Of a stretch of 64,000 bases of DNA, positions 44,533 to 56,266 are shown piece by piece. Position 1 is the first letter of the stretch, and each line of letters begins with the position of its first letter. The DNA comes from a virus. The stretch is from IMG/VR virus record IMGVR_UViG_3300037086_000458, positions 22,090 through 86,089 of that record. One strand, 5' to 3'. The notes under the pieces are model-generated. The model was not told the origin of the DNA. It searched no databases and worked only from the letters and a program-made list of their open reading frames with translations. The translations under genes and the position numbers were made by a program.

Positions 44533-47337
44533 ATGTCAATGCTAAGATTTGGGAATGCAGCTTTAGTGACCAGAATAGTCGATCCATTTAAATGGGTCGA
44601 CAAAAAAGTCCCTGCCGGTAGAGTTAAAGTTGCTAGAAATATAATAGCTAAGTATGATCCCTCTAAGTGGCTTTTAAGTCATGTCTCTATTATAGCTTCC
44701 GTTGATGTAGAGCTTGCAGATCAAAAAGATAAAAAAAGCAATTATTTAATTAAGCCAGAATATTCAGCTTTTGTAAATAATAATGGGGATTCTTGGGAGC
44801 GTGAACTTCTTAAAGCTACTTACAAAACTTTTTTAGGTGCTGATAATTATGTAGAGCATGTCCAAATCCCTGAGTTATCAAAAGGGAAAGTAATTGATGT
44901 TGCTTTAAGAGAAGTCCCAATAGGAAAAGATATAGATGGTAAAGATCTTACAACCCTTTATGTTGATATCCTTATAGCCACCAATAAGACTCACACTGAT
45001 TTAATTGAAAAAATTAAAGATGGTACATATAACGCAACTAGCATGGGTTGTGGGATAGCTGGTACAAAGATAATTCTACCTAATGGTTCTATTAAATTTA
45101 TAGAGAATGTTATGGTAGGGGATGAGGTATTAACGCATACCGGTAAATCAAAAAAAGTTACGGCATTATTTAATAAATATGTTTCAGATGTTTCTTTATA
45201 TTCTGTTGATTATATAGGTGCTGAAGAACCCTTAAGATTAACTGGAGAGCACCCTATTTTAATAGCATTTTCTGATTCCGTAAAATGTACCTATCAAAAA
45301 AGTAGGTGTAGGGTTGATAGAAATCAAAGTATGTGTTCTTGGAATAGTAAGGGTGGTAAGAAAAAAATAGAATGTGGTAGAGATAAAAATACCTATGAAT
45401 ATGGTTTTAAATTTGTTCCTATATCTGAGGTATCTAAAGGAGATTATATAGTTAGAGTTTTTCCTACAGATACAACTGATAGCGAAATTTTTACAGAGGA
45501 CATTTGTAGATTGTTGGGTATATATGCTGGGGATGGTTATATAGGTTGGCAATGGGCTACTAATATAGATCATATTACTCAACAAAAAACGTATACAAAA
45601 AGATACCCGGCGTATATTGGTTTTTGTTTAGGGTTAAAAGAAAAGAAGTTACAAGAAGAAGTTTTAGAACTACTTAATAAAATATCACCAAGTGTAACTA
45701 TTACAAGTAAGGAAGTTCCTGAAAGAAATGGTTTTTATATAAATGTTTATGATAAAGATTTATCAAAACTTTTTTATGAAAATTGTGGAGAAGGTGCTTG
45801 GACTAAATCTTTTTCAGATAAAGTGATGGTTTTACCTAAAGATAAGCAGCTAAAAATTATATCAGGTATGTTTGATACTGATGGGTGCTATCAAGAAAAA
45901 ACTAATAGCTTACACTATTCTTCTGCCTCTATAAATTTATTAAATCAGCTACATTTACTTCTTTTAAGAAATGGCATAGGTAATGCAAGGGAAAGGGTAT
46001 TAAGAAAAGATACAGGTAAGAAAAAAGGCCAAGGAAAATATTTTCAAGAAACAGTTACAGTTAATAAAAATTTTTCATTTAAAGTTCCAAGTTGTAAAAA
46101 TAAAAGTTTTGGTATTGAGCCTAAAATTAAAAAAGAAGATTGCTTCTTTTTTAATAACTATTATTTATCCCAAATAAAGACTATAACACATTTAAGATTT
46201 TCAGGTAATATTTATAATTTTTCTGTAGAAGAAGATGAATCTTATTCTGTAGATAATGTAGCTGTTCATAATTGTTTAATTGCTTATAGTCAGTGTTCTC
46301 AATGCGGTAATATAGCTGAAGACGAACCAAAGTTATGTAAACATGTACGTTATTTCAAGAATAACTTTTTCATAGATAAAAATGGTGTAAAAAGGATAAT
46401 AGCCGAGCTTTGTGGAAGAGCTGAAGATCCGGGTAGTAATAAGTTTATTGATGCAAGCTGGGTTAAAAAACCTGCTTTCGAAGGGGCTTTATTAAGAAAT
46501 CTGGTTGAGCCTTCTGAGGATATATCAGAAAAGCTTAATAAAGCGATGTTATTTCCTTCATTTCAACCTCAGCCTGGAATGCTCTTAAGAGCTGCCTCAC
46601 AATCAGCAGCAGCTCTTGTAAATGAGATACAAGCTCAGAATGAAGCTGCCCCTGATCCAGCCTCTTCCCCTGCTCCTAAGGAACCTAAAGAACCTGCTGG
46701 TGATGATACTGATTTTCCTGCAGCACCAGAAGGTGATACTCCTTTGAAACTTGATGAACCTCCTGCAGAAGAAGCACCAGCAGCAGAAGCACCTGTTCCA
46801 GAAGCTCCAGCAGCACCCCAGCCTCAGATCCAAGAGCCTGCCGAGGATGCAACTGTTAAAGAAGTAGAAGATCTCTTTACAAAAAATATCCTTAATAAAA
46901 TAAGAAAAAAACTATTAAAGGATGATGCAGAGTTAAAGACTGCTCCTGGTGATAAACCAATAGTTAGTGAATCCTTAAATGATAATTTTATAAAAACTTC
47001 AGATAGTAAAAATCACCTGATTAAACTAGCTAGAACTACAGGTAATAAAAGATTGATAAATGGTTTTATGATCCTTTCTAATATTGAAAATTGGGAAAGT
47101 TTAAAAAGATATGGGTATGATCGTAGAGATGTGTTAGGAATGCTTCATTTCATAGACAAAAACATGTCTTCTAACCCAGTAGGATCTGATGCAGTTTTAG
47201 CTTTGTCTAAGATTAAAACAGCAAATAGTAGCCCTCAATCTTTTTTTACTGAGATGATTATAGAAATTGGCAGACAGCCCTCAGTAAAAGAAGCTAAAAA
47301 GCTAATTAAGTGGGCTAAAATATTATCAAAATTATAG
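44533..47337 (+). CDS. Prohead protease/scaffold-type protein interrupted by an intein
   Basis: The 934-residue product is a host protein split by an intein at residues 173-580. The joined exteins (526 residues) read SMG then CLIAYSQCSQCGNIAEDE, RIIAELCGRAEDPGSNKF and IDASWVKKPAFEGALLRN, a pattern I associate with prohead core/protease proteins of large phages. The C-terminal extein continues with an Ala/Pro-rich linker and a charged helical end that fits a scaffold part. Splicing would restore the head protein in front of the capsid genes. Confidence 0.72.
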   Translation: MSMLRFGNAALVTRIVDPFKWVDKKVPAGRVKVARNIIAKYDPSKWLLSHVSIIASVDVELADQKDKKSNYLIKPEYSAFVNNNGDSWERELLKATYKTFLGADNYVEHVQIPELSKGKVIDVALREVPIGKDIDGKDLTTLYVDILIATNKTHTDLIEKIKDGTYNATSMGCGIAGTKIILPNGSIKFIENVMVGDEVLTHTGKSKKVTALFNKYVSDVSLYSVDYIGAEEPLRLTGEHPILIAFSDSVKCTYQKSRCRVDRNQSMCSWNSKGGKKKIECGRDKNTYEYGFKFVPISEVSKGDYIVRVFPTDTTDSEIFTEDICRLLGIYAGDGYIGWQWATNIDHITQQKTYTKRYPAYIGFCLGLKEKKLQEEVLELLNKISPSVTITSKEVPERNGFYINVYDKDLSKLFYENCGEGAWTKSFSDKVMVLPKDKQLKIISGMFDTDGCYQEKTNSLHYSSASINLLNQLHLLLLRNGIGNARERVLRKDTGKKKGQGKYFQETVTVNKNFSFKVPSCKNKSFGIEPKIKKEDCFFFNNYYLSQIKTITHLRFSGNIYNFSVEEDESYSVDNVAVHNCLIAYSQCSQCGNIAEDEPKLCKHVRYFKNNFFIDKNGVKRIIAELCGRAEDPGSNKFIDASWVKKPAFEGALLRNLVEPSEDISEKLNKAMLFPSFQPQPGMLLRAASQSAAALVNEIQAQNEAAPDPASSPAPKEPKEPAGDDTDFPAAPEGDTPLKLDEPPAEEAPAAEAPVPEAPAAPQPQIQEPAEDATVKEVEDLFTKNILNKIRKKLLKDDAELKTAPGDKPIVSESLNDNFIKTSDSKNHLIKLARTTGNKRLINGFMILSNIENWESLKRYGYDRRDVLGMLHFIDKNMSSNPVGSDAVLALSKIKTANSSPQSFFTEMIIEIGRQPSVKEAKKLIKWAKILSKL
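45049..46272 (+). mobile_element. Intein with LAGLIDADG homing endonuclease domain
   Basis: The 408-residue insert begins with Cys173 (CGIAGTKI), has block B TGEHPIL, the two endonuclease motifs LLGIYAGDGYIG and ISGMFDTDGCY, and the C-terminal splice motif NVAVHN, immediately followed by the +1 Cys of the C-extein. All residues needed for standard (class 1) protein splicing are present: N-terminal Cys, block B His, penultimate His, terminal Asn and extein Cys. The endonuclease motifs are intact, so homing is possible. Confidence 0.92.
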
Positions 47338-47439
47338 AGATTTATAATAACCTATTCATATTGAATTTTTAAGTGATTGAAATTTTAGATCGATAGCAAT
47401 GGTGAAACTGAATATAAAATTATCACAGGAGGTTATTTC

Positions 47440-48558
47440 ATGAGAAACCGCTTAACTTCAAGAGTAGCTGCGGATACAGTAGCGGACAAAGGTACTGGGA
47501 TCATGAACGATCCGTACCAAGTTAACAATCCGGAACATGAAAAGAATGATCCGGAGATGTCAAGTTATGTTATAGGAGATCCTGAAAAGTTTGGTGAAGG
47601 CGTGAATAAGGATGATCTCTGGAAAAAAGATAAGAGAGATCCTGGAACGCACATTCCTGAGATTACCGCTAAGATGGCAGCGGATGCTATTAAAGCTGGT
47701 CGCAATCTCGAAGAAAAAGCTGTAAAGTGTATCGTCGCTTCTCAACGTATTCTTCCTGGTGCTGTAGATGCTGTTATTGAAAGCCAAGCGGCAGATCTCA
47801 TGCAGCTTCCTGACACTATGATTAATTCTCTTCTTAGTCGTCAAGAAGACCTGGCAAATTCTATTGCTAAGGCTGCTGAAGACACTTCTGAAAAAGTAGA
47901 AGAAAAAGAAGAGAAAGAAGAGAAGGATGAGAAGGATGCTTCTAAGGCTTGCAAAAAAGAAGATGAAGAGAGTGAAGAAGTAGATGCTTCTAAAGCTTGT
48001 AAAAAAGATGATGAGGATGAAGAAGTAGAAGCTGCTGCTAAGAAACTCGAAGAACTCCAGGCCTCAGTTATTAAACTTGCTGGTGAGATCCCTGCTGCTT
48101 TGAAGGCTTATCAGGAAGCTCAGAAAGCAAAAAAAGGTGAGAAGCCCGAAGAAAAAGAAGAAGAAAAAGATGCTGGTGCAATTCCTGAGGGTTTGAAAAA
48201 ATTTCAGGAAGAGCAAAAGGCAAAAAAAGGTGAGAAGCCCGAAGAAGATGAAAAGGATGCAGGTAAAAAAGTAGAACCTGCTGAAGAGAAAAAGGAAGAA
48301 GAAGAAGTAAAAGATGCTGCTAAGAAAGAGGAAAAGAAGCCTGAAGAAGAGATCACTTTTGGAGATACTGGTGAAGGCGAAGGAAAAGATGCTTCACAGA
48401 ATCTTCTTGATGATATCTTTTCAAGCGTTATCGCTTCTGATACGAAAAAGGGAGCAAAGAGTCTTAGTGGTTTAGTTAAGAAAGAAGCTTCTGAGGCAAA
48501 AGATCCGTTGGATGGCATATGGAATGCTCCTCCGGACGTTTCATCGCATTTTCAATAA
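47440..48558 (+). CDS. Scaffold-like highly charged protein
   Basis: The 372-residue protein has an ordered part to about residue 145 (TAKMAADAIKAGRNLEEKA, CIVASQRILPGAVDAVIES) and then long Lys/Glu-rich repeats with two related units (QKAKKGEKPEEKEEEKDAG and QKAKKGEKPEEDEKDAG) and a repeated DASKACKK element. The end returns to a short ordered segment. AGGAGG precedes the ATG. Its position just upstream of capsid genes and its composition fit a scaffolding or internal head protein. Confidence 0.6.
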   Translation: MRNRLTSRVAADTVADKGTGIMNDPYQVNNPEHEKNDPEMSSYVIGDPEKFGEGVNKDDLWKKDKRDPGTHIPEITAKMAADAIKAGRNLEEKAVKCIVASQRILPGAVDAVIESQAADLMQLPDTMINSLLSRQEDLANSIAKAAEDTSEKVEEKEEKEEKDEKDASKACKKEDEESEEVDASKACKKDDEDEEVEAAAKKLEELQASVIKLAGEIPAALKAYQEAQKAKKGEKPEEKEEEKDAGAIPEGLKKFQEEQKAKKGEKPEEDEKDAGKKVEPAEEKKEEEEVKDAAKKEEKKPEEEITFGDTGEGEGKDASQNLLDDIFSSVIASDTKKGAKSLSGLVKKEASEAKDPLDGIWNAPPDVSSHFQ

Positions 48559-48562
48559 TGGA

Positions 48563-48579
48563 TGTATGAATTGAAATAA
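48563..48579 (+). promoter_or_regulatory. 17-base motif upstream of decoration-like gene
   Basis: TGTATGAATTGAAATAA is identical to 22593-22609. It lies 84 bases upstream of the start at 48663, in a spacer that also contains AAGGAGG. Both copies are intergenic and on the plus strand upstream of genes, so a shared promoter element is possible. Confidence 0.35.
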
Positions 48580-48662
48580 TAATAGGTAGATAGTTTTTTA
48601 ATACCCGCCAAAGAAAATTTTTTGGGTTGGGTGAGTTTAAATAATCTTAAGGAGGTTTTACT

Positions 48663-49214
48663 ATGATCGGTGAAGCAAGCGGCATAGTCCCAGATCGTGG
48701 GATGAATATTCTCTACAGAGTTACCCTTAATTCATTGGGTAAACTGACAGACGCTGGTTTAACAAAGGCTAACTACTCTTCTCTCCAGCAGCAAGCAAAC
48801 ACTCGTTTGAGTTCTTCAACTCCAAACGGTATTCTTGCTGGTAGCGTTGTAGCGGTTGGTGCAACTAGCGGGACAATCGTTGCGGCTAATGCGGATACTC
48901 TCACAGTTGTGGGTATCGCTGAGAACAATGCGGTTGGTTATCCGTATGAGTCTTCAAGTGGTGTTGGTTCCGGTAAGTGCCCTTACCTCTCAGGCGCAGG
49001 TTCATGCTTTGCAACTGACCTTTATGAGACAGCGACTGCTGGCGGAAACGCATCTATTATGACCGGTTATACTCCTGGTGCCCTTCTGTACGCTTCTGCA
49101 AATGGTCTTTTGACCAATTCTACAGATAGTGTTAAAGGCACAGTAGTTATCGGTGTTGTTTTGTCTGCTCCGTCAACAAGTGATCCGTTCATGGTTGTTC
49201 AGATGAGGATATAA
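48663..49214 (+). CDS. Head decoration/fibre-like structural protein
   Basis: The 183-residue protein is Gly/Ala/Ser/Thr/Val-rich and beta-like (VVAVGATSGTIVAANADTL, VVGIAENNAVGYPYE), with two central cysteines (KCPYLSGAGSCFATD) that could form a disulfide. AAGGAGG gives it a very strong ribosome binding site, suiting an abundant virion component. It lies directly upstream of the capsid gene, where decoration proteins are common. The base composition is less AT-rich than average, as in the capsid gene. Confidence 0.6.
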   Translation: MIGEASGIVPDRGMNILYRVTLNSLGKLTDAGLTKANYSSLQQQANTRLSSSTPNGILAGSVVAVGATSGTIVAANADTLTVVGIAENNAVGYPYESSSGVGSGKCPYLSGAGSCFATDLYETATAGGNASIMTGYTPGALLYASANGLLTNSTDSVKGTVVIGVVLSAPSTSDPFMVVQMRI

Positions 49215-49219
49215 TGGTG

Positions 49220-49250
49220 AGTGAGGTGTAACAGCCTCACTTTATTATTA
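49220..49250 (+). terminator. Weak hairpin between decoration-like and capsid genes
   Basis: AGTGAGG (49220-49226) pairs with CCTCACT (49235-49241), followed by a T-rich but interrupted stretch (TTATTATTAT). It may partly terminate or process the transcript between two highly translated genes. Confidence 0.4.
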
Positions 49251-49311
49251 TAAAACTCTGAATACACATGAAATTGGGTAATCTAAAAAAAGTTTTAAGG
49301 AGGTTTTTATT

Positions 49312-50190
49312 ATGTCTGAGATCAGTAACGAAGTCAAACAGCAGCTTATAGGCGATTTCATTAAGACTGCTGCAGGCCGTGCAAAACTTGCTGCTTCCAT
49401 GATTCAGCCTTTACGTCTGAGAAGGGATTATACCTCAGTAGCACGTAAGGCTTTCTTGGTTGAGCAGCTTCCTGATGGCGCACTCCCAATCTATGACAAA
49501 GATCCGAACGTTACGGCCTTTGTTGTTGGTGAAGAGGGCGAGAACATTCTTGCTATTACCAAGCCTCGTCGCGTGATTTTCCCGTTGTTCGAAATTGCAT
49601 CGAACCCTGAAATTCCGTTGACACAGGTTAAAGAAAGACGCTTCGACCTTATTGAAAGAGCACAAGATCTTGCTAAGGCACAGATTCAGGCTGCGGAAGA
49701 TGCCAGAGCTTTTGACGTTATGGATGCAGTGTCAACGGTTGGTTTTGACAACCTTGGTTCTGCCTATGTAAATGCTCAGGTTAATGCTACTGCCCCGATC
49801 AAGCCCGCTGATTTTATTGATGCTTTCGCTCGCATCGAGACCCATGATCTGAGAGTTGCCCGAGTCTTTATGAACGCTTTGGATTATGCTGATGTGCGTA
49901 AATGGGGAAGAGACGTCCTTGACATCGAGAGTCAGGCCAGTCTGTTAAAGACAGGTTTGATGGCTACGGTTTGGGGCGCACAGATCATCGTAACGAGAAA
50001 AGTCAACCCCGGGTATGCATATGTATGTGCAGAGCCGGAGTTCTTCGGCAGAATTCCCGTTAGAACCGAGTTGACCGTACTTTCTGCTGACGATCCAAAA
50101 GCTCGCCGTATCGGTTTTAGCTGCTTCGAAAATCTTGGTATTGGTTGCCATAACCCATTGGCACTTACCAGAATTAAGATAGCTAGATAA
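49312..50190 (+). CDS. Major capsid protein (HK97-fold type)
   Basis: The 292-residue protein has the expected capsid layout: a short N-terminal helix, a P-domain-like middle (KERRFDLIERAQDLAKAQIQ) and A-domain strands (ARVFMNALDYADVRKWG, GAQIIVTRKVNPGYAYVCA). The ribosome binding site AAGGAGG and an almost ideal terminator after the stop fit the most abundant virion protein. Its less AT-rich codons are also typical of highly expressed phage genes. It follows the protease and decoration-like genes. Confidence 0.78.
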   Translation: MSEISNEVKQQLIGDFIKTAAGRAKLAASMIQPLRLRRDYTSVARKAFLVEQLPDGALPIYDKDPNVTAFVVGEEGENILAITKPRRVIFPLFEIASNPEIPLTQVKERRFDLIERAQDLAKAQIQAAEDARAFDVMDAVSTVGFDNLGSAYVNAQVNATAPIKPADFIDAFARIETHDLRVARVFMNALDYADVRKWGRDVLDIESQASLLKTGLMATVWGAQIIVTRKVNPGYAYVCAEPEFFGRIPVRTELTVLSADDPKARRIGFSCFENLGIGCHNPLALTRIKIAR

Positions 50191-50217
50191 CTTTATAAAT
50201 CATAAGGTTATATACAT

Positions 50218-50254
50218 AAAGACTTGGCCTAATAAGCCAGGTCTTTTGTTTTTT
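50218..50254 (+). terminator. Strong terminator after the capsid gene
   Basis: AAAGACTTGGC (50218-50228) pairs with GCCAGGTCTTT (50236-50246) with one G-T pair, followed by TTGTTTTTT. It ends the capsid transcript and isolates it from the TnpB element beginning near 50333. The 80 bases between them hold nothing I recognise. Confidence 0.8.
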
Positions 50255-50332
50255 ATAAGCTATTTATTTAACTTCATATTTTCCTCTATGTAAACACGAA
50301 TTTTTTGTTTTTATGAGTCTTACGAGAGAAAA

Positions 50333-51570
50333 CCACGGGCCTTGTGCCCGTGGATGAATCGAGTCATTAAATAGTTTAAAATAAACCTTATATTTTGTGT
50401 AAAACAGAGTATATTACTATCAAATGCGCAAAACCTTTAAATATCGTCTATACCCTACAAGACTTCAGATAACCAAGATGAATAATATCCTGGAACTGAC
50501 TCGTTGGGTATACAATGAAACCCTTGCGCTTCGAAAAAACGCCTGGGAGTCTGAAAAGAAATCCATCTCTTTGTATGATACTGCTAATCATCTTCCTATT
50601 TGGAAATCTCAGAGACCAGAACTTCATGATGTACACTCTCAAATTTTGCAGAATGCTCAAATCAGAGTAGACCTTGCTTTTAAAGCTTTCTGGAAAAGAT
50701 GTAAACAAGGTCAGAAACCAGGATTTCCTCGCTTCAAAGGAAAAGGCTGGTATGACTCTTTTACTTATCCTCAGTCTGGCTTCAGACTTCATCCTGACGG
50801 GGTATATCTTTCTAAGATCGACCGTGTCAAGATTGTTCTTCATAGACCGCTCGAAGGGAAAATTAAAACCTGTACCGTTAAAAAGACTCCTACAGGAAAA
50901 TGGTATGTATATTTTTCCTGTATAGTTGAAACTCCTGAGCCTCTTCCAAAAACTGGTAAGATAGTTGGAATAGATTTGGGTCTTATCACTTATGTTCAAT
51001 GTTCTGATGGGACTAAAATTGATAAGCCTCGATTTTTTAATGAAGAGAAAAAATCTCTTGCTCAGGCCAAGCGGCGTGAGAATATAACTTTTAAAGCCAA
51101 ACATAAAAGAGTTTTGGCTATGATCCACGAGAGGATAAAAAACAAGAGAGAGGATTTTTGTCATAAGACTTCCAAGAAACTTGTAGATAAATATGATTTC
51201 ATTGCTCATGAAGACCTTAACGTTAAAAATCTTATTGAGAAAAAAGAAAATAGTAAAAATATCTCTGATGCCGCTTGGTCTACGCTGATCCAATACATGA
51301 CCGCCAAGGCTGAAAGTGCCGGGCGGATCATAGTAGCAGTAGACCCAAGGGGTACATCTCAGAGATGTTCCCAATGTGGGACTGATGTTCCTAAGAGTCT
51401 TGAAGTTCGAGTACATCATTGTCCTCATTGTGGTTTCAAAACTGGCAGAGATTTAAACTCTGCCTTAGAGATACTCAGACTTGGGATGAAGTCTGTTGAG
51501 CGACCATTGCATCGCCGCAAGGCGTGTGCAGCGGTCTGACTCATGGAAGCCACGGGGCTTGTCCCCGTGG
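50333..51570 (+). mobile_element. IS605-family-type tnpB element (no tnpA) with matching palindromic ends
   Basis: The left palindrome CCACGGGC-CTTGT-GCCCGTGG (50333-50353) and right palindrome CCACGGGG-CTTGT-CCCCGTGG (51550-51570) share the same loop and almost the same stem, bracketing a single tnpB gene. IS200/IS605 elements carry such subterminal hairpins. There is no TnpA transposase, so it depends on one in trans or is immobile. TTAC lies 10 bases left of the first hairpin, at 50320-50323, and could be the target-adjacent motif. The exact ends cannot be fixed from one copy. Confidence 0.75.
50424..51539 (+). CDS. tnpB: TnpB RNA-guided nuclease (IS605 OrfB family)
   Basis: The 371-residue protein has the TnpB layout: an N-terminal helix-turn-helix part (MRKTFKYRLYPTRLQ), a RuvC-like domain with D184 in VGIDLGL, E263 in AHEDLNV and D343 in GRDLNSA, and a zinc ribbon (C315, C318, C333, C336). 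All catalytic and zinc positions are intact, so it should be active. TnpB cuts DNA guided by an RNA made from the element's right end, which here would overlap the 3' end of the gene and the hairpin at 51550-51570. Confidence 0.9.
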   Translation: MRKTFKYRLYPTRLQITKMNNILELTRWVYNETLALRKNAWESEKKSISLYDTANHLPIWKSQRPELHDVHSQILQNAQIRVDLAFKAFWKRCKQGQKPGFPRFKGKGWYDSFTYPQSGFRLHPDGVYLSKIDRVKIVLHRPLEGKIKTCTVKKTPTGKWYVYFSCIVETPEPLPKTGKIVGIDLGLITYVQCSDGTKIDKPRFFNEEKKSLAQAKRRENITFKAKHKRVLAMIHERIKNKREDFCHKTSKKLVDKYDFIAHEDLNVKNLIEKKENSKNISDAAWSTLIQYMTAKAESAGRIIVAVDPRGTSQRCSQCGTDVPKSLEVRVHHCPHCGFKTGRDLNSALEILRLGMKSVERPLHRRKACAAV

Positions 51571-51599
51571 AGCATTCACTTTTATGCTATATTAACTAT

Positions 51600-53501
51600 A
51601 TGACAAAACCAGGACCAAAAATCCCAGATATTTCAGATGAGATATTAACTAAGCTCCTTGTAGAGGATAAAAAAACAGATAAGGAAGCTGCAGCTATTTT
51701 AAATGTTAGTAGGAATACTATCGCCAGGTCCCGCAACAGGTTGAATATCCCAATAAAGCCAAAGTGTAAAAAATCAGAGTTCACATCAGAACAGGATGAA
51801 TATTTAAAAAAATTATATATTGAAGAATCAAAAAATGATTATGAAGTGGCAAGTTTGTTACACATAGGAAGAACCCGTTTAATGTGCTGGCGAAGAAAAA
51901 ATAATATTAAATCAAAAACTAATAAAAAAGATCTGCCTAATAATATATGTTCTGAAATCAAATCTAAATTGCAAAATGGAGAAACTTTAACAGTTATAGG
52001 AAAATCTTTAAATGTAAAAGGATATTCTATAGCTCGTTTGTTAAAAAGAAATAATTATGAAACAGGATTTAGTATTAGATCAAGCCCACCAGGTATTCTT
52101 GATTATTCTCTTTCAACTACACAAGAATCTGTATTAATGGGAGAAATGTTTGGGGATGGAGGCCTTGTTAAAGGGGGTCCCGCCACAGCTTATTATCAGT
52201 GTGGGCATAGTATAGAACAGAAAGATTTTGTTAACTGGAAATATGATATTTTTTATCCTTTGAGTTGCAGGAAAAAAGAGAATGCTAACACCATAACTAT
52301 GGCTACATGGTCAAATAAATCTCTTTTTAATTACTGGAAATGGTTTTATCCTACTGGTAGAGGGGATAAGGTTTTATTACCTGAAATGATATCTAAGCTG
52401 GATTGGCTTAGTCTTGCTGTTTGGTTTATGGGTGATGGGGCAAGAGATCGTAAACAAGTAAGATTTTCTGTAGGAAAAGATCAAAATTTAATTCCTGTTG
52501 TAGAATCTATGAATCAAAAATTTGGAAACATGTTTGAAGCTTGCCTGTATGAAAAGGAGTGGTTTTTAAAAATTCGAGATAATGAATCATTTTTTAAAGA
52601 AATATCCCCTTATTTATTACCCTATTTTTCTTATAAGATTCCTTGTGCTACACCTATAATTAATAAACTCAACTCATCAAAAAAATGTCACCAGAAAATA
52701 ATGAAGGAAGAGAAGTTAGAAGCTGATCTTAAAAATTTGTCTTTTGATCCTAAAACTTGCCCTATTGATGAATATATTTTTTCTAAAGAAGATTTTTCTG
52801 ATGAAATCAAAGAATTTTTAAAATCATATGAGTGGCTTAAATCTGTTGGTGTTTCTTCTAAGTGGTGTTTTACAATGCGTTTAAAAGGTCATTTAGCTGG
52901 CGTACAAATACTGAATGAGCCAGCTGCTTATAGTAAATTATTAGACACGGTTAGTATGAAATTAGAATGCCTTGTTCAGAGGGGTTGTACGGTATCATGG
53001 GCACATCAGCATTTAGGGAGTAAGATGTTGATGGCTTCTGTGAATTGGATGGTACAGAATACTGAAAAGAGATTATTTGTTGGATATGCTGATCCGGCTG
53101 CAGCAGAGGTTGGGATAATTTATCAGGCGACAAATTTTAAATATTTAGGGGAAAATTTTGGTGGAAATTGTCTTTACAAGCATCCTACGTATAGAAATGG
53201 AAAAGAGTTTTCGGCCCATTCTTTAAAAAGGACTAGTATTTTTAAGGCTTGGTGCAAACAAAATAGTATCGCTATTGAATCATCTTGGATTAAGTCTAAT
53301 GGATTTAAAGATTTGAAACAGATACCCGTGGACATTAAAAATTCCTGGTATGATTGGGCTAAAAAATTAATATCAGAGTCTGAAAAAATTAAAATTTCTT
53401 TAAAAGGAAAATATGTTTTATTAAGGGGTAGAGATCGACGAGAGCATAAAATTTTAAATTCTTTGTTTAAAGTAAAGACATTCCCTTATCCTAAAAGATA
53501 A
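51600..53501 (+). CDS. Helix-turn-helix / LAGLIDADG endonuclease / Mom-like acyltransferase fusion
   Basis: From the ATG at 51600 (a longer frame starts at 51543 inside the IS hairpin region) the 633 residues divide into three parts. The first 150 hold three tandem HTH units (KEAAAILNVSRNTIARSR, YEVASLLHIGRTRLMCW and VIGKSLNVKGYSIARLL). Residues 175-370 carry two LAGLIDADG motifs (VLMGEMFGDGGL and SLAVWFMGDGAR). The last 220 match the Mom/GNAT pattern (GHLAGVQILNEP, FVGYADPAAAEVGIIYQ). Mom modifies adenine in phage Mu DNA. No intein splice ends are visible, so this looks like a true fusion. Confidence 0.6.
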   Translation: MTKPGPKIPDISDEILTKLLVEDKKTDKEAAAILNVSRNTIARSRNRLNIPIKPKCKKSEFTSEQDEYLKKLYIEESKNDYEVASLLHIGRTRLMCWRRKNNIKSKTNKKDLPNNICSEIKSKLQNGETLTVIGKSLNVKGYSIARLLKRNNYETGFSIRSSPPGILDYSLSTTQESVLMGEMFGDGGLVKGGPATAYYQCGHSIEQKDFVNWKYDIFYPLSCRKKENANTITMATWSNKSLFNYWKWFYPTGRGDKVLLPEMISKLDWLSLAVWFMGDGARDRKQVRFSVGKDQNLIPVVESMNQKFGNMFEACLYEKEWFLKIRDNESFFKEISPYLLPYFSYKIPCATPIINKLNSSKKCHQKIMKEEKLEADLKNLSFDPKTCPIDEYIFSKEDFSDEIKEFLKSYEWLKSVGVSSKWCFTMRLKGHLAGVQILNEPAAYSKLLDTVSMKLECLVQRGCTVSWAHQHLGSKMLMASVNWMVQNTEKRLFVGYADPAAAEVGIIYQATNFKYLGENFGGNCLYKHPTYRNGKEFSAHSLKRTSIFKAWCKQNSIAIESSWIKSNGFKDLKQIPVDIKNSWYDWAKKLISESEKIKISLKGKYVLLRGRDRREHKILNSLFKVKTFPYPKR

Positions 53502-53522
53502 ATTTAATAATTTTACTTCATC

Positions 53523-53556
53523 AAAAGGCAGAGACCACCAAATCCCTGCCTTTTTT
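53523..53556 (+). terminator. Terminator after the HTH/LAGLIDADG/Mom-like gene
   Basis: AAAAGGCAG (53523-53531) pairs with CTGCCTTTT (53546-53554), with a T-run to 53556. It ends the transcript that carries the endonuclease-fusion gene. Confidence 0.8.
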
Positions 53557-53585
53557 GTTAACCTTCTAATTTTATATCCTTGACT

Positions 53586-53777
53586 ATGAATGAAAAAGTA
53601 TTAGAAAGAGATCTTAATTCTATAGCTTTTAAATATAAAAATATTCCTATGGATTGTGATGTTATAGAACAGTCCTATATAAATGAGATGGCCAATCTTC
53701 TTGTTGATTCATCGGTAGATGGAGAAGAATTTTATTCAATAATGAAATTCTTTAAAACTTTCCAGGAAGATGAGTAA
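53586..53777 (+). CDS. Small hypothetical protein
   Basis: The 63-residue protein is acidic and helical (RDLNSIAFKYKNIPM, YINEMANLLVDSSVDGEEF). I use the ATG at 53586. A TTG six bases earlier is the only longer option, and no clear ribosome binding site is seen, so confidence is moderate. Confidence 0.45.
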   Translation: MNEKVLERDLNSIAFKYKNIPMDCDVIEQSYINEMANLLVDSSVDGEEFYSIMKFFKTFQEDE

Positions 53778-53807
53778 TATCCTTTTAATAAATCTACCTT
53801 CTATATT

Positions 53808-54497
53808 ATGCTTAAACCAATAGCCTCTCATATCCGTATTGTTTCCGCAAAAATAAAAGAGAAATCTGAAGATGACCGTATTTATGAGGAAATTAAAGAC
53901 GAATATAATGTCACGGTATTACCTGGAAATAAAATAGAAAACGTAAAGAAGCTGTATGAAGCTTTAAAGAAGCTTCCTACGCAGTTAGTAAGAGATTGCA
54001 AAATAGTGACGATGGATTTTAAGGATTTGGGCCCTTCTAAAGAATTCTACCCTAATCACGGTCGATATCAAAGGGGAATCCTTACTTTAAATGAGAGGAT
54101 ACTTAAAGATACTTCTGTGGAAGTAGATAAACAGACTAATAAGAAAGCTACTAAGTTTGAGCATACTTATTATCACGAGTTAGGTCATGGTTTTGATGAA
54201 AAGAAGCATGAGAGAGATAAATGGTTAAGCCTGAAGGATGATTGGCTTGAATTATCAGGGTGGTCTGAAAGCCCTAAACCAGGATATAAAAGATTAATTA
54301 TTAGAGAAGAGGGTGCTCCAGAATTAAAGGGAGAGTGGTATTATTCTCCTGATGCAAAGTTTTCAAGGTTCTATGGTAAGCGTAATCCGTGGGATGACTT
54401 CGCAGACTCTTTTTCGTATATGGTAGCGGGTTTGAAAAGTTATCTGCCTCATAACAAAAGAAAATATTTTGATGATCTTTTAAAAGAATATTATTAG
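53808..54497 (+). CDS. Zinc metallopeptidase-like protein (HExxH)
   Basis: The 229-residue protein has TYYHELGHGFDEK, an HExxH zinc site, with a third ligand candidate in NPWDDFADSFSYM about 60 residues later, as in compact gluzincins related to the anthrax lethal-factor C-domain type. The N-terminal 115 residues are mixed alpha/beta. It lies just before a holin-like gene. It could be a virion-linked peptidase or part of lysis, but the substrate is unknown. Confidence 0.62.
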   Translation: MLKPIASHIRIVSAKIKEKSEDDRIYEEIKDEYNVTVLPGNKIENVKKLYEALKKLPTQLVRDCKIVTMDFKDLGPSKEFYPNHGRYQRGILTLNERILKDTSVEVDKQTNKKATKFEHTYYHELGHGFDEKKHERDKWLSLKDDWLELSGWSESPKPGYKRLIIREEGAPELKGEWYYSPDAKFSRFYGKRNPWDDFADSFSYMVAGLKSYLPHNKRKYFDDLLKEYY

Positions 54498-54537
54498 AAG
54501 CCATATTTAGATTCACTTTAACATATTGGAGGATTTT

Positions 54538-54819
54538 ATGAAGATTCTGAAGACACTTATTTTGAAGGCAGAGGGTGGTTTTTCTTGGACTAAGTTTTTT
54601 TATTGGGTAACTACAATATGTGGTATAGTAACTCTGCTTCCTGGTGAAATGACACAGTTAGGTTTAACTGTTGCACCAAAAATTCAGCATTTAGTAGTTG
54701 TAGCCGGTATGGTATCTTTTTTGATTGCTGGTATCAGGAATAGGAATGCATCGTCTGTGATACCTGATCCTACACCTGTTGCACCAGCTGAACCTGTAAA
54801 AGAAGAACCTAAAGCTTAA
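54538..54819 (+). CDS. Holin-like small membrane protein
   Basis: The start ATG at 54538 has GGAGG five bases upstream, which decides it over an in-frame codon at 54526. The 93-residue product has two hydrophobic segments (FFYWVTTICGIVTLLPG and HLVVVAGMVSFLIAGI) separated by a short loop and a charged, Pro-rich C-terminal tail. This topology fits class II holins. No endolysin is adjacent unless the peptidase at 53808 serves that role, so the call is tentative. Confidence 0.45.
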   Translation: MKILKTLILKAEGGFSWTKFFYWVTTICGIVTLLPGEMTQLGLTVAPKIQHLVVVAGMVSFLIAGIRNRNASSVIPDPTPVAPAEPVKEEPKA

Positions 54820-54833
54820 ATTTTATAATGTAT

Positions 54834-54865
54834 TTGAAGGAAGAGCGTAATGACTCTTCCTTCAA
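54834..54865 (+). other. Perfect 12-bp hairpin without T-run
   Basis: TTGAAGGAAGAG (54834-54845) pairs perfectly with 54854-54865 around CGTAATGA. It is followed by TAAAAAATTG, not by a T-run, so it is not a standard terminator. It could be an RNA-processing or stability element between the holin-like gene and the next gene at 54884. Confidence 0.5.
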
Positions 54866-54883
54866 TAAAAAATTGTATAAATT

Positions 54884-56266
54884 ATGCCTAACATATCAAA
54901 ATATAAAAGTAAGCCTAACTGGATGTCCGACTGTATGAGAATTAATAAAAGTGAAGGCAAAAAAAATGACCAAAGTTTAGCAATCTGTTTGTCCCAATGG
55001 AGACAGAAGCATAGGGGGAAAGATGCATCGGATTATTCTAAATATCTGGAATTTTCTCCAGGTAATGGTTTAGAATATTATGTACTAAGGATACCCAAAG
55101 ATGCCACTCCTCCTAAAGAAGGGGATTCTTTAAAACTAAATGGAGTTGATGTTATAGTCCATTCTGTAAGTACTCCTGATGATATTCGTAAAGGTAGAGG
55201 TGGACCTGCTGCTGATAGCTTAGAAAAGGCAGGCATAGGTTGGGATGTTAATTGTTTGCCTAAAGGTCATAAATGGCTTAAGCAAGCCGGTTACTTTTCT
55301 TCTTTAATGATTAGAATCGCTGATGATTTTCAGGTGGATATAGATAAAGCTAAAGAAGAGGGTCTTCCTTCAGTTTTTCTCGGAGGATATTGTGAGGATG
55401 GTAATAAATGGCGTGAGGAGATAAAAAAAGAGTTCAAGGAAGACTTTTTATTTATAGATCCTTACGATCCAGATTGGGAAGCAGAAGATAATATTTATAA
55501 TGAATTAGCAGCAATTTTAAATGTCGATCATGTTATATTCTACAGAGGCGGAAGAGGTACGGAAAAAGAAAAAGAATTTATGAAGAATACAGACAGTGAC
55601 TATAAAAGCTTTGGTAATTTAAATGAGTTGAAAGATTACTTAAAATCATTATCATTCCGTGTAGCTAAAAAAGCATGTATTTCTGCTTATTTGAGAAAGA
55701 TAGCTTCTCATATAATAGAAGTTAAAAAAATAAGCAAAGTTGCAAAACTAAATGGCTCTTATGATTATTCAAGTTTGCAGATACAGTTACCCGAAGATTT
55801 ATCAGAATCAGTTGTTACTTGGGGTAAAGATAACATCCCTGAGGAGCTCCTTCATAATAATGAGAAAGAAACTAAAGGGCGAGAGGATGATATTCATGTT
55901 ACATTAATTTTTGGTATTGAAAGCCCTGATTATACTGAATCAGAGGAAATATTAGAGAAAGAAAAGTCTTTTGATATTCGATTAGGCCTTGTTACAGCTT
56001 TTAAAGATGATCCAGATTATGATGTTATTAAAATAGATGTTGAATCGTCAAAACTTCATCAACTTCATTATAAATTAAGAGATAAGATTAAAGTTAATAT
56101 AACGCATCCAAGTTATTTTCCTCATATTACTGTTGCGTATGTTAAAAAGGATTCATCAGATAATTTAATAGGTAATGATTTTTTTAGAGGTAAAAAATTT
56201 ATTGTAAGTAATGTTGTATTTAGTTCTAAAAACGGTAATAAAAAAGTTATAGAAATTGGTAGATAA
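54884..56266 (+). CDS. Nucleoside deoxyribosyltransferase-like domain fused to 2H phosphoesterase
   Basis: The 460-residue protein has a short N-terminal element (MSDCMRINKSEGKKNDQ) and a middle domain at 160-225 (PSVFLGGYCEDGNKWREE, FIDPYDPDWEAEDNI, NELAAILNVDHVIFYRGG) matching the nucleoside deoxyribosyltransferase fold. The C-terminal domain carries two H-x-T motifs, DDIHVTLIFG (H338) and FPHITVAYV (H414), of 2H phosphoesterases. 2H enzymes cleave cyclic or 2'-5' phosphodiesters, and the phage anti-CBASS protein Acb1 is one. The combination suggests nucleotide-signal destruction or salvage. This is inference. Confidence 0.6.
   Translation: MPNISKYKSKPNWMSDCMRINKSEGKKNDQSLAICLSQWRQKHRGKDASDYSKYLEFSPGNGLEYYVLRIPKDATPPKEGDSLKLNGVDVIVHSVSTPDDIRKGRGGPAADSLEKAGIGWDVNCLPKGHKWLKQAGYFSSLMIRIADDFQVDIDKAKEEGLPSVFLGGYCEDGNKWREEIKKEFKEDFLFIDPYDPDWEAEDNIYNELAAILNVDHVIFYRGGRGTEKEKEFMKNTDSDYKSFGNLNELKDYLKSLSFRVAKKACISAYLRKIASHIIEVKKISKVAKLNGSYDYSSLQIQLPEDLSESVVTWGKDNIPEELLHNNEKETKGREDDIHVTLIFGIESPDYTESEEILEKEKSFDIRLGLVTAFKDDPDYDVIKIDVESSKLHQLHYKLRDKIKVNITHPSYFPHITVAYVKKDSSDNLIGNDFFRGKKFIVSNVVFSSKNGNKKVIEIGR

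Follow-up and report, generated by a model that had tools for sequence, protein, structure and literature searches.

The nuclease–modifier fusion gene and its start

Why should a DNA-cutting domain and a DNA-modifying domain share one polypeptide beside the capsid gene of a phage? The question is raised by a gene in the window, the 64,000-nucleotide stretch of an 86-kb viral record that we analysed. The gene (51600..53501, plus strand; identified from its ORF and from Pfam and PHROGs matches, with the start placed by the position of the right end of an IS605-type element) encodes a fusion protein of 633 aa. In a single frame, about three HTH units are followed by a complete two-motif LAGLIDADG nuclease and then by a complete Mom domain. 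Pfam matches occur along the protein in the order HTH, LAGLIDADG_2 and Mom, and those of PHROGs agree, bearing out the domain calls of an earlier note made from the DNA letters (HTH repeats, two LAGLIDADG motifs and a Mom-like C-terminus). The same frame occurs in a second contig of 13,736 bp, which is near-identical and aligns with only two gaps. To judge from these matches, the fusion architecture is far beyond chance. An Rfam search of 47000-55000 returned no match, a PDB sequence search with the single protein returned Myb-like HTHs only, and AlphaFold gave no usable model of the full-length protein when run without an alignment (pLDDT 31.6).

The open frame spans 51543-53501 and would encode 652 aa if read from its first codon. 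Codons 1-19 of this longer frame (MEATGLVPVEHSLLCYINY) derive for the most part from translation of the IS605-type element's right end. Because the segment 51543-51599 consists mostly of this right end and the short gap after it, the true start is most likely the ATG at 51600, which the earlier note had also chosen. From this codon, the N-terminus of the fusion protein aligns with that of a protein of a related locus, L212:10856.

The IS605-type element itself (50334..51571, plus strand) is not part of the fusion. It was recognized by a TnpB CDS (50424-51539, plus strand; Pfam and PHROGs) and by matching hairpins, CCACGGGCCTTGTGCCCGTGG at 50334-50354 and CCACGGGGCTTGTCCCCGTGG at 51551-51571, and a gap of just about 30 nt separates it from the fusion gene downstream. 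An IS605-type guide RNA, if made, would continue into the first part of that gene. A clear GGAGG ribosome site precedes the structural genes at 47440, 48663 and 49312; none precedes TnpB at 50424, the fusion gene at 51600 or its right-hand neighbour at 53808. Further upstream, a 934-aa frame (44533-47337) contains a Hint/LAGLIDADG_3 intein within a protein weakly similar to head maturation protease. On the other side, the product of 54884-56266 joins a weak nucleoside deoxyribosyltransferase-like part to a C-terminal 2H phosphoesterase that scores above the cut-off for Pfam Acb1 (anti-CBASS) and 2_5_RNA_ligase2.

HTH units and a single-chain LAGLIDADG nuclease

HTH unit 1 (HTH_23, residues 19-48; 51654..51743, plus strand) scored above the Pfam cut-off. 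Unit 2 (Myb-like, residues 58-102; 51771..51905, plus strand) is weak alone (E 0.1) and aligns with the repeats of relatives; unit 3 (residues 119-151; 51954..52052, plus strand) is likewise weak alone (HTH_38, E 0.014) and aligns with relatives. The units belong with the nuclease, not with Mom: HTH-LAGLIDADG proteins without Mom are common, examples being those of L242, L092 and the crAss-like P0004.

The LAGLIDADG_2/I-SceI-like nuclease domain occupies 52128..52649 (plus strand) and was identified by Pfam (LAGLIDADG_2, E 2e-14), alignment and profile; PHROGs matched it to LAGLIDADG homing endonuclease at 4e-10. Its catalytic acids, D186 and D279, are invariant in 36 aligned sequences, comprising the fusion protein and 35 relatives, and a profile built from the nuclease alignment matches I-SceI at 1.4e-31. 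The domain thus resembles I-SceI and LAGLIDADG_2 (PF03161) in having two motifs and both acids within one chain, the mark of the family. By contrast, I-SceI is intron-encoded, whereas the nuclease described here is free-standing, with HTH units before it and a modification enzyme after it.

The C-terminus is a predicted Mom domain

The Mom (GNAT-fold) DNA-modification domain occupies 52716..53498 (plus strand), as supported by Pfam, PHROGs, conserved residues and a structural model. Its score against Mom (PF25680) was 32.7 bits, against a curated cut-off of 27.1, and it matched the PHROGs family Mom-like DNA modification (phrog_1384) at 5.7e-14; FVGYADPAAAEVG is part of the Mom core. A model of the last 261 residues, built with 59 aligned sequences, had a pLDDT of 93.6. 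According to both Foldseek (E 4e-9) and VIA, the best PDB match to this model is phage Mu Mom (8bv8), with a Z score of 18.3 over 194 residues versus 14.1 for the runner-up, a general GNAT. The earlier note had made its reading depend on a GNAT-like C-terminal model; the model does have this fold, and its best match is Mu Mom itself.

Beyond the fold, the domain shares active-site residues with Mu Mom. S474 corresponds to S124 of Mu Mom, the serine mutated (S124A) in the 'inactive mutant' structure 8bv8, and the equivalents of R111, D149 and Y159, presumed active-site residues of Mu Mom, are retained as R461, D498 and Y508. The differences are that Mu Mom is free-standing, whereas this domain is the C-terminal part of a nuclease; that identity in the structural alignments is just 11-15%; and that the HY pair of Mu Mom (H58 and Y59, which we presume to be iron ligands) is replaced by E411/W412. 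As the EW pair is invariant within this Mom subfamily, its chemistry may differ from that of Mu. The replacement bears on chemistry and not on membership of the Mom family, whose models do not require the pair. Profile, modelled fold and active-site residues all identify the C-terminus of the fusion as a member of the Mom family, whose enzymatic trait is methylcarbamoylation of adenine. Mu Mom marks many adenines, not one site.

Matches to the model in BFVD (G4KKB0, A0A8S5T2T4 and I7KLM9) are long phage proteins, some of them named endonuclease-like or homing endonuclease, with a Mom-like fold region. Joins of nuclease and GNAT may therefore be widespread under the name homing endonuclease.

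Two other readings of the architecture were rejected. An intein is ruled out: there is no intein family among the Pfam matches of the fusion protein, the C-terminal splice block of relatives' LAGLIDADG inteins is absent from it, and Mom is whole after the nuclease. The earlier note, which had seen no splice motifs, was right in this respect. Its proposal that an endonuclease had inserted in frame into an HTH-Mom protein did not survive comparison with relatives. The homologue check that it proposed covered 118 distinct Mom domains and, among the matches listed, revealed no HTH-Mom protein that lacks a nuclease. Moreover, the HTH units go with the nuclease in proteins that have no Mom, Mom is whole, and a related locus (L014) encodes HTH-LAGLIDADG and Mom as a split pair.

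An insertion hotspot downstream of the capsid gene

The major capsid protein gene (49312..50190, plus strand; PHROGs and relatives) flanks the site at which the fusion gene lies. The capsid protein shares 74% identity with its counterpart in an uncultured 485-kb phage and 40% with the one in Bacillus phage G, values that place the virus in a huge-phage lineage. At the DNA level, relatives resemble the window as far as the capsid stop codon and no further. To describe the site, we sampled at least 80 capsid relatives, chosen regardless of their neighbours, and counted the 52 loci with at least 2.5 kb downstream. Among the matches listed, a LAGLIDADG gene starts within 1 kb of the capsid stop in 32 of the 52 loci; a single-frame LAGLIDADG-methyltransferase fusion is present in 17; and none of the three searched domains starts within 3.5 kb in 17. 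The fusion gene of the window starts 1.4 kb past the capsid stop because the IS605 element sits between them.

Individual loci present empty and filled forms of the site. Downstream of its capsid gene, L218 has a small gene and then one that is metalloprotease-like. L216 has the same two genes, with an 876-aa LAGLIDADG-methyltransferase gene inserted ahead of them after the capsid gene. In L207, whose capsid protein is 95% identical to that of the window, a LAGLIDADG-methyltransferase gene stands where the window has TnpB and LAGLIDADG-Mom. On these comparisons, the HTH-LAGLIDADG genes of this huge-phage family have a hotspot immediately past the major capsid gene, and the fixed position with empty and filled alleles constitutes a homing pattern.

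LAGLIDADG enzymes have rare, long cleavage sites. This rarity and the homing pattern beside the capsid gene both argue against a protein that has no part in homing and mainly degrades host or rival DNA, its Mom domain marking the phage genome at large. We consider such a role highly improbable; what speaks for it is that it was predicted for REase-Mom fusions of jumbo phages, in the passages of PMC7824862 that deal with those fusions.

Nucleases and modifiers are not strictly bound together at the hotspot. Among the matches listed, about half of the LAGLIDADG genes at the capsid site are without a modifier, so self-marking is not obligatory. Some copies are partly decayed: L237:6445-7893 and L243:7536-8867 keep both nuclease motifs and have a truncated methyltransferase, and L213:1578-3362 seems to have lost the LAGLIDADG acids and retains the methylase motif. 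A strict addiction rule, by which no nuclease occurs without a modifier, fails on the modifier-free genes and the truncated methylases.

Several further features of the region were noted. In L215, L217, L222, L245 and L289, an insert splits the capsid gene near codon 30. LAGLIDADG parts are present in the inserts of L217 and L289, and that of L222 has a nuclease-like frame of another kind; these inserts appear to mark a second endonuclease site, within the capsid gene. In L265:2338-4647 and L267:7962-10277, the same type of methyltransferase lies beside the capsid gene, and a zinc-rich, possibly REase-like N-terminus replaces LAGLIDADG. Just downstream of the fusion, a conserved gene (53808-54497) encodes a protein with the zincin-like motif YHELGHGFDE; it adjoins the capsid gene in many relatives and is usable as a right-hand marker of the hotspot.

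Pairing of nucleases and modifiers in relatives

The following counts are of distinct sequences in our sample, a few of them near-copies, and are not frequencies in nature. LAGLIDADG-methyltransferase fusions number at least 34 (32 in the first survey plus two more) and occur at the capsid site and elsewhere. The methyltransferase part is PF01555, with an SPPY-type motif in most of them. These proteins (L207, L209, L212, L216 and others) share with the window fusion the same kind of scaffold, the capsid site and a C-terminal modifier, and differ in having a methyltransferase in place of Mom. At least three LAGLIDADG-Mom fusions were found, those of the window, L287 (707 aa) and L289 (716 aa); the latter two, recovered in a second scan, rule out that the fusion is an oddity unique to the window. 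Both lie just past the capsid gene, directly or closely behind a LAGLIDADG-methyltransferase gene, and the Mom of L287 is 64% identical to that of the window. Mom is also fused to REase/DUF7487 nucleases in at least 19 cases and to HNH nucleases in at least six (L159 included), the HNH label being drawn from motif and PHROG matches, not structures.

LAGLIDADG and Mom are separate overlapping genes beside the capsid gene in L014 and L290, the overlap of the HTH-LAGLIDADG and Mom genes in L014 being 4 nt. Such frames are a small step from fusion and, like the partly decayed copies (the nuclease of L213 and the methylase of L237 and L243), are what would be expected if stop-codon loss had accidentally joined genes crowded at a recombination hotspot, with no functional coupling and one or both parts possibly decaying. 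An accident of this kind is unlikely to account for at least three separate LAGLIDADG-Mom fusions and at least 34 with a methylase, or for both domains having kept their catalytic residues at identities of no more than about 40-65% to their nearest relatives.

In a nuclease tree, built quickly and with weak support on many branches, three separate places are occupied, one by the window, one by L287 and one by the L289/L014/L290 group. An AU test (29 rows) rejected a single nuclease clade for the three LAGLIDADG-Mom fusions (p-AU 7e-48), ruling out a single origin for their nuclease part. The Mom of the window belongs to a group of eight with 98% support, all of them nuclease-linked (among the matches listed). 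Within an enclosing group of twelve with 100% support, two members have only a zinc-finger part of endonuclease VII type, a label that likewise comes from motif and PHROG matches and not structures, and just one, at a contig end, could not be judged. Fifty LAGLIDADG ORFs have at least 150 residues past the domain: these contain a methyltransferase in 29 cases and Mom in one, and 11 of the remaining 20 are intein-like by their splice block. The pairing of nucleases and modifiers is modular in both directions, with swaps of nuclease and swaps of modifier. Other partners were seen as well: LAGLIDADG_2 is fused to a weak nucleoside deoxyribosyltransferase-like domain in L143:4776-6068 and L148, and to a ParB_N domain in L223:7885-9636.

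The main rival to a self-sparing homing gene is that the nuclease only spreads the gene, while Mom or the methyltransferase is useful cargo that shields the whole genome from host restriction, nuclease and modifier acting at different sites. Anti-restriction is the classical role of Mom and of phage methyltransferases; 86 of the 118 Mom homologues (among the matches listed) are without a long N-terminal nuclease part, and Mom proteins unlinked to a nuclease have short N-terminal extensions only (again among the matches listed). The modifier may be either a methylase or Mom, so that no single mark is needed, and nuclease-only copies are present at the capsid site. Free cargo, on the other hand, needs no one-frame fusion. 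In addition, fusion or coupling to three or four types of nuclease is seen within one Mom subclade, and every assessable member of it in the first tree has a nuclease or an endonuclease-VII-like zinc-finger partner (among the matches listed). Weighing these points, we regard the cargo explanation as possible but rather doubtful.

Discussion

On architecture, the fusion has one trait of restriction-modification enzymes, a nuclease and a modifier in one unit. Type IIG restriction-modification enzymes likewise combine nuclease and DNA modification in one chain; the differences here are a LAGLIDADG nuclease, a putative acyl instead of methyl modifier, and the position at a phage hotspot. To our knowledge, no LAGLIDADG restriction enzyme has been described. 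REase-Mom fusions of jumbo phages, of which L012, L016, L023 and others in our sample are likely members, have been proposed as restriction-modification units that mark their own DNA and attack other DNA (PMC7824862), so the idea of a nuclease-Mom unit is not new. Those proteins also hold an endonuclease and Mom in one chain, with a nuclease of REase/DUF7487 type in contrast to the LAGLIDADG nuclease here, and the passages devoted to them do not describe a capsid hotspot, a methylase swap or repeated capture. A literature search of partial coverage found no account of LAGLIDADG-Mom proteins, LAGLIDADG-methyltransferase proteins or the capsid hotspot. Within that coverage, the LAGLIDADG forms are new, and nuclease-Mom fusion as such has already been proposed.

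The model that we favour starts from features read from the sequences: the anatomy, intact catalytic residues, fold, hotspot, presence and absence at the site, and repeated nuclease–modifier pairing. We infer from them the enzymatic activities, the target site and the blocking of this nuclease by the mark. The fusion may be a free-standing, self-sparing homing endonuclease gene at the capsid hotspot, a reading for which we judge the case evenly balanced. An HTH-LAGLIDADG scaffold would have acquired a whole Mom-type domain. The HTH units and the LAGLIDADG part would recognize a long target sequence, which probably lies within the capsid gene of related phages or next to it, and the LAGLIDADG part would cut this target where it is unmarked. 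Repair using the carrier as template would then copy the gene into the cut genome. Meanwhile, the tethered Mom would acylate adenines of the carrier DNA, at such sites or close to them, and cutting there would be blocked. The resulting one-protein self-sparing homing element would also shut out competing phages. The earlier note's idea that the protein cuts unmodified competitors and marks its own DNA fits the recurrent pairing.

A homing endonuclease ordinarily leaves its own genome uncut, either because its gene splits the target site or because the site is different there. This counts against self-sparing by modification, since a mark is superfluous for a gene that disrupts the site it homes to; the modifier-free nuclease genes at the capsid site, the EW replacement in Mom and the many adenines marked by Mu Mom also count against it. 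Nevertheless, the repeated joining of similar cutters to different markers beside one capsid gene suggests a selfish gene able to cut the DNA of rivals while sparing its own. We tentatively put forward that these proteins could form a class of phage homing restriction-modification elements, in which a LAGLIDADG nuclease is self-sparing via an exchangeable Mom or methyltransferase; the target site would be kept intact in the carrier and every unmarked rival cut. If true, the fused modifier would be a second way for a homing endonuclease to spare its own genome, and one protein would unite homing genes with restriction-modification, each a kind of selfish DNA. The repeated fusions provide a ready natural set of proteins for testing self-sparing.
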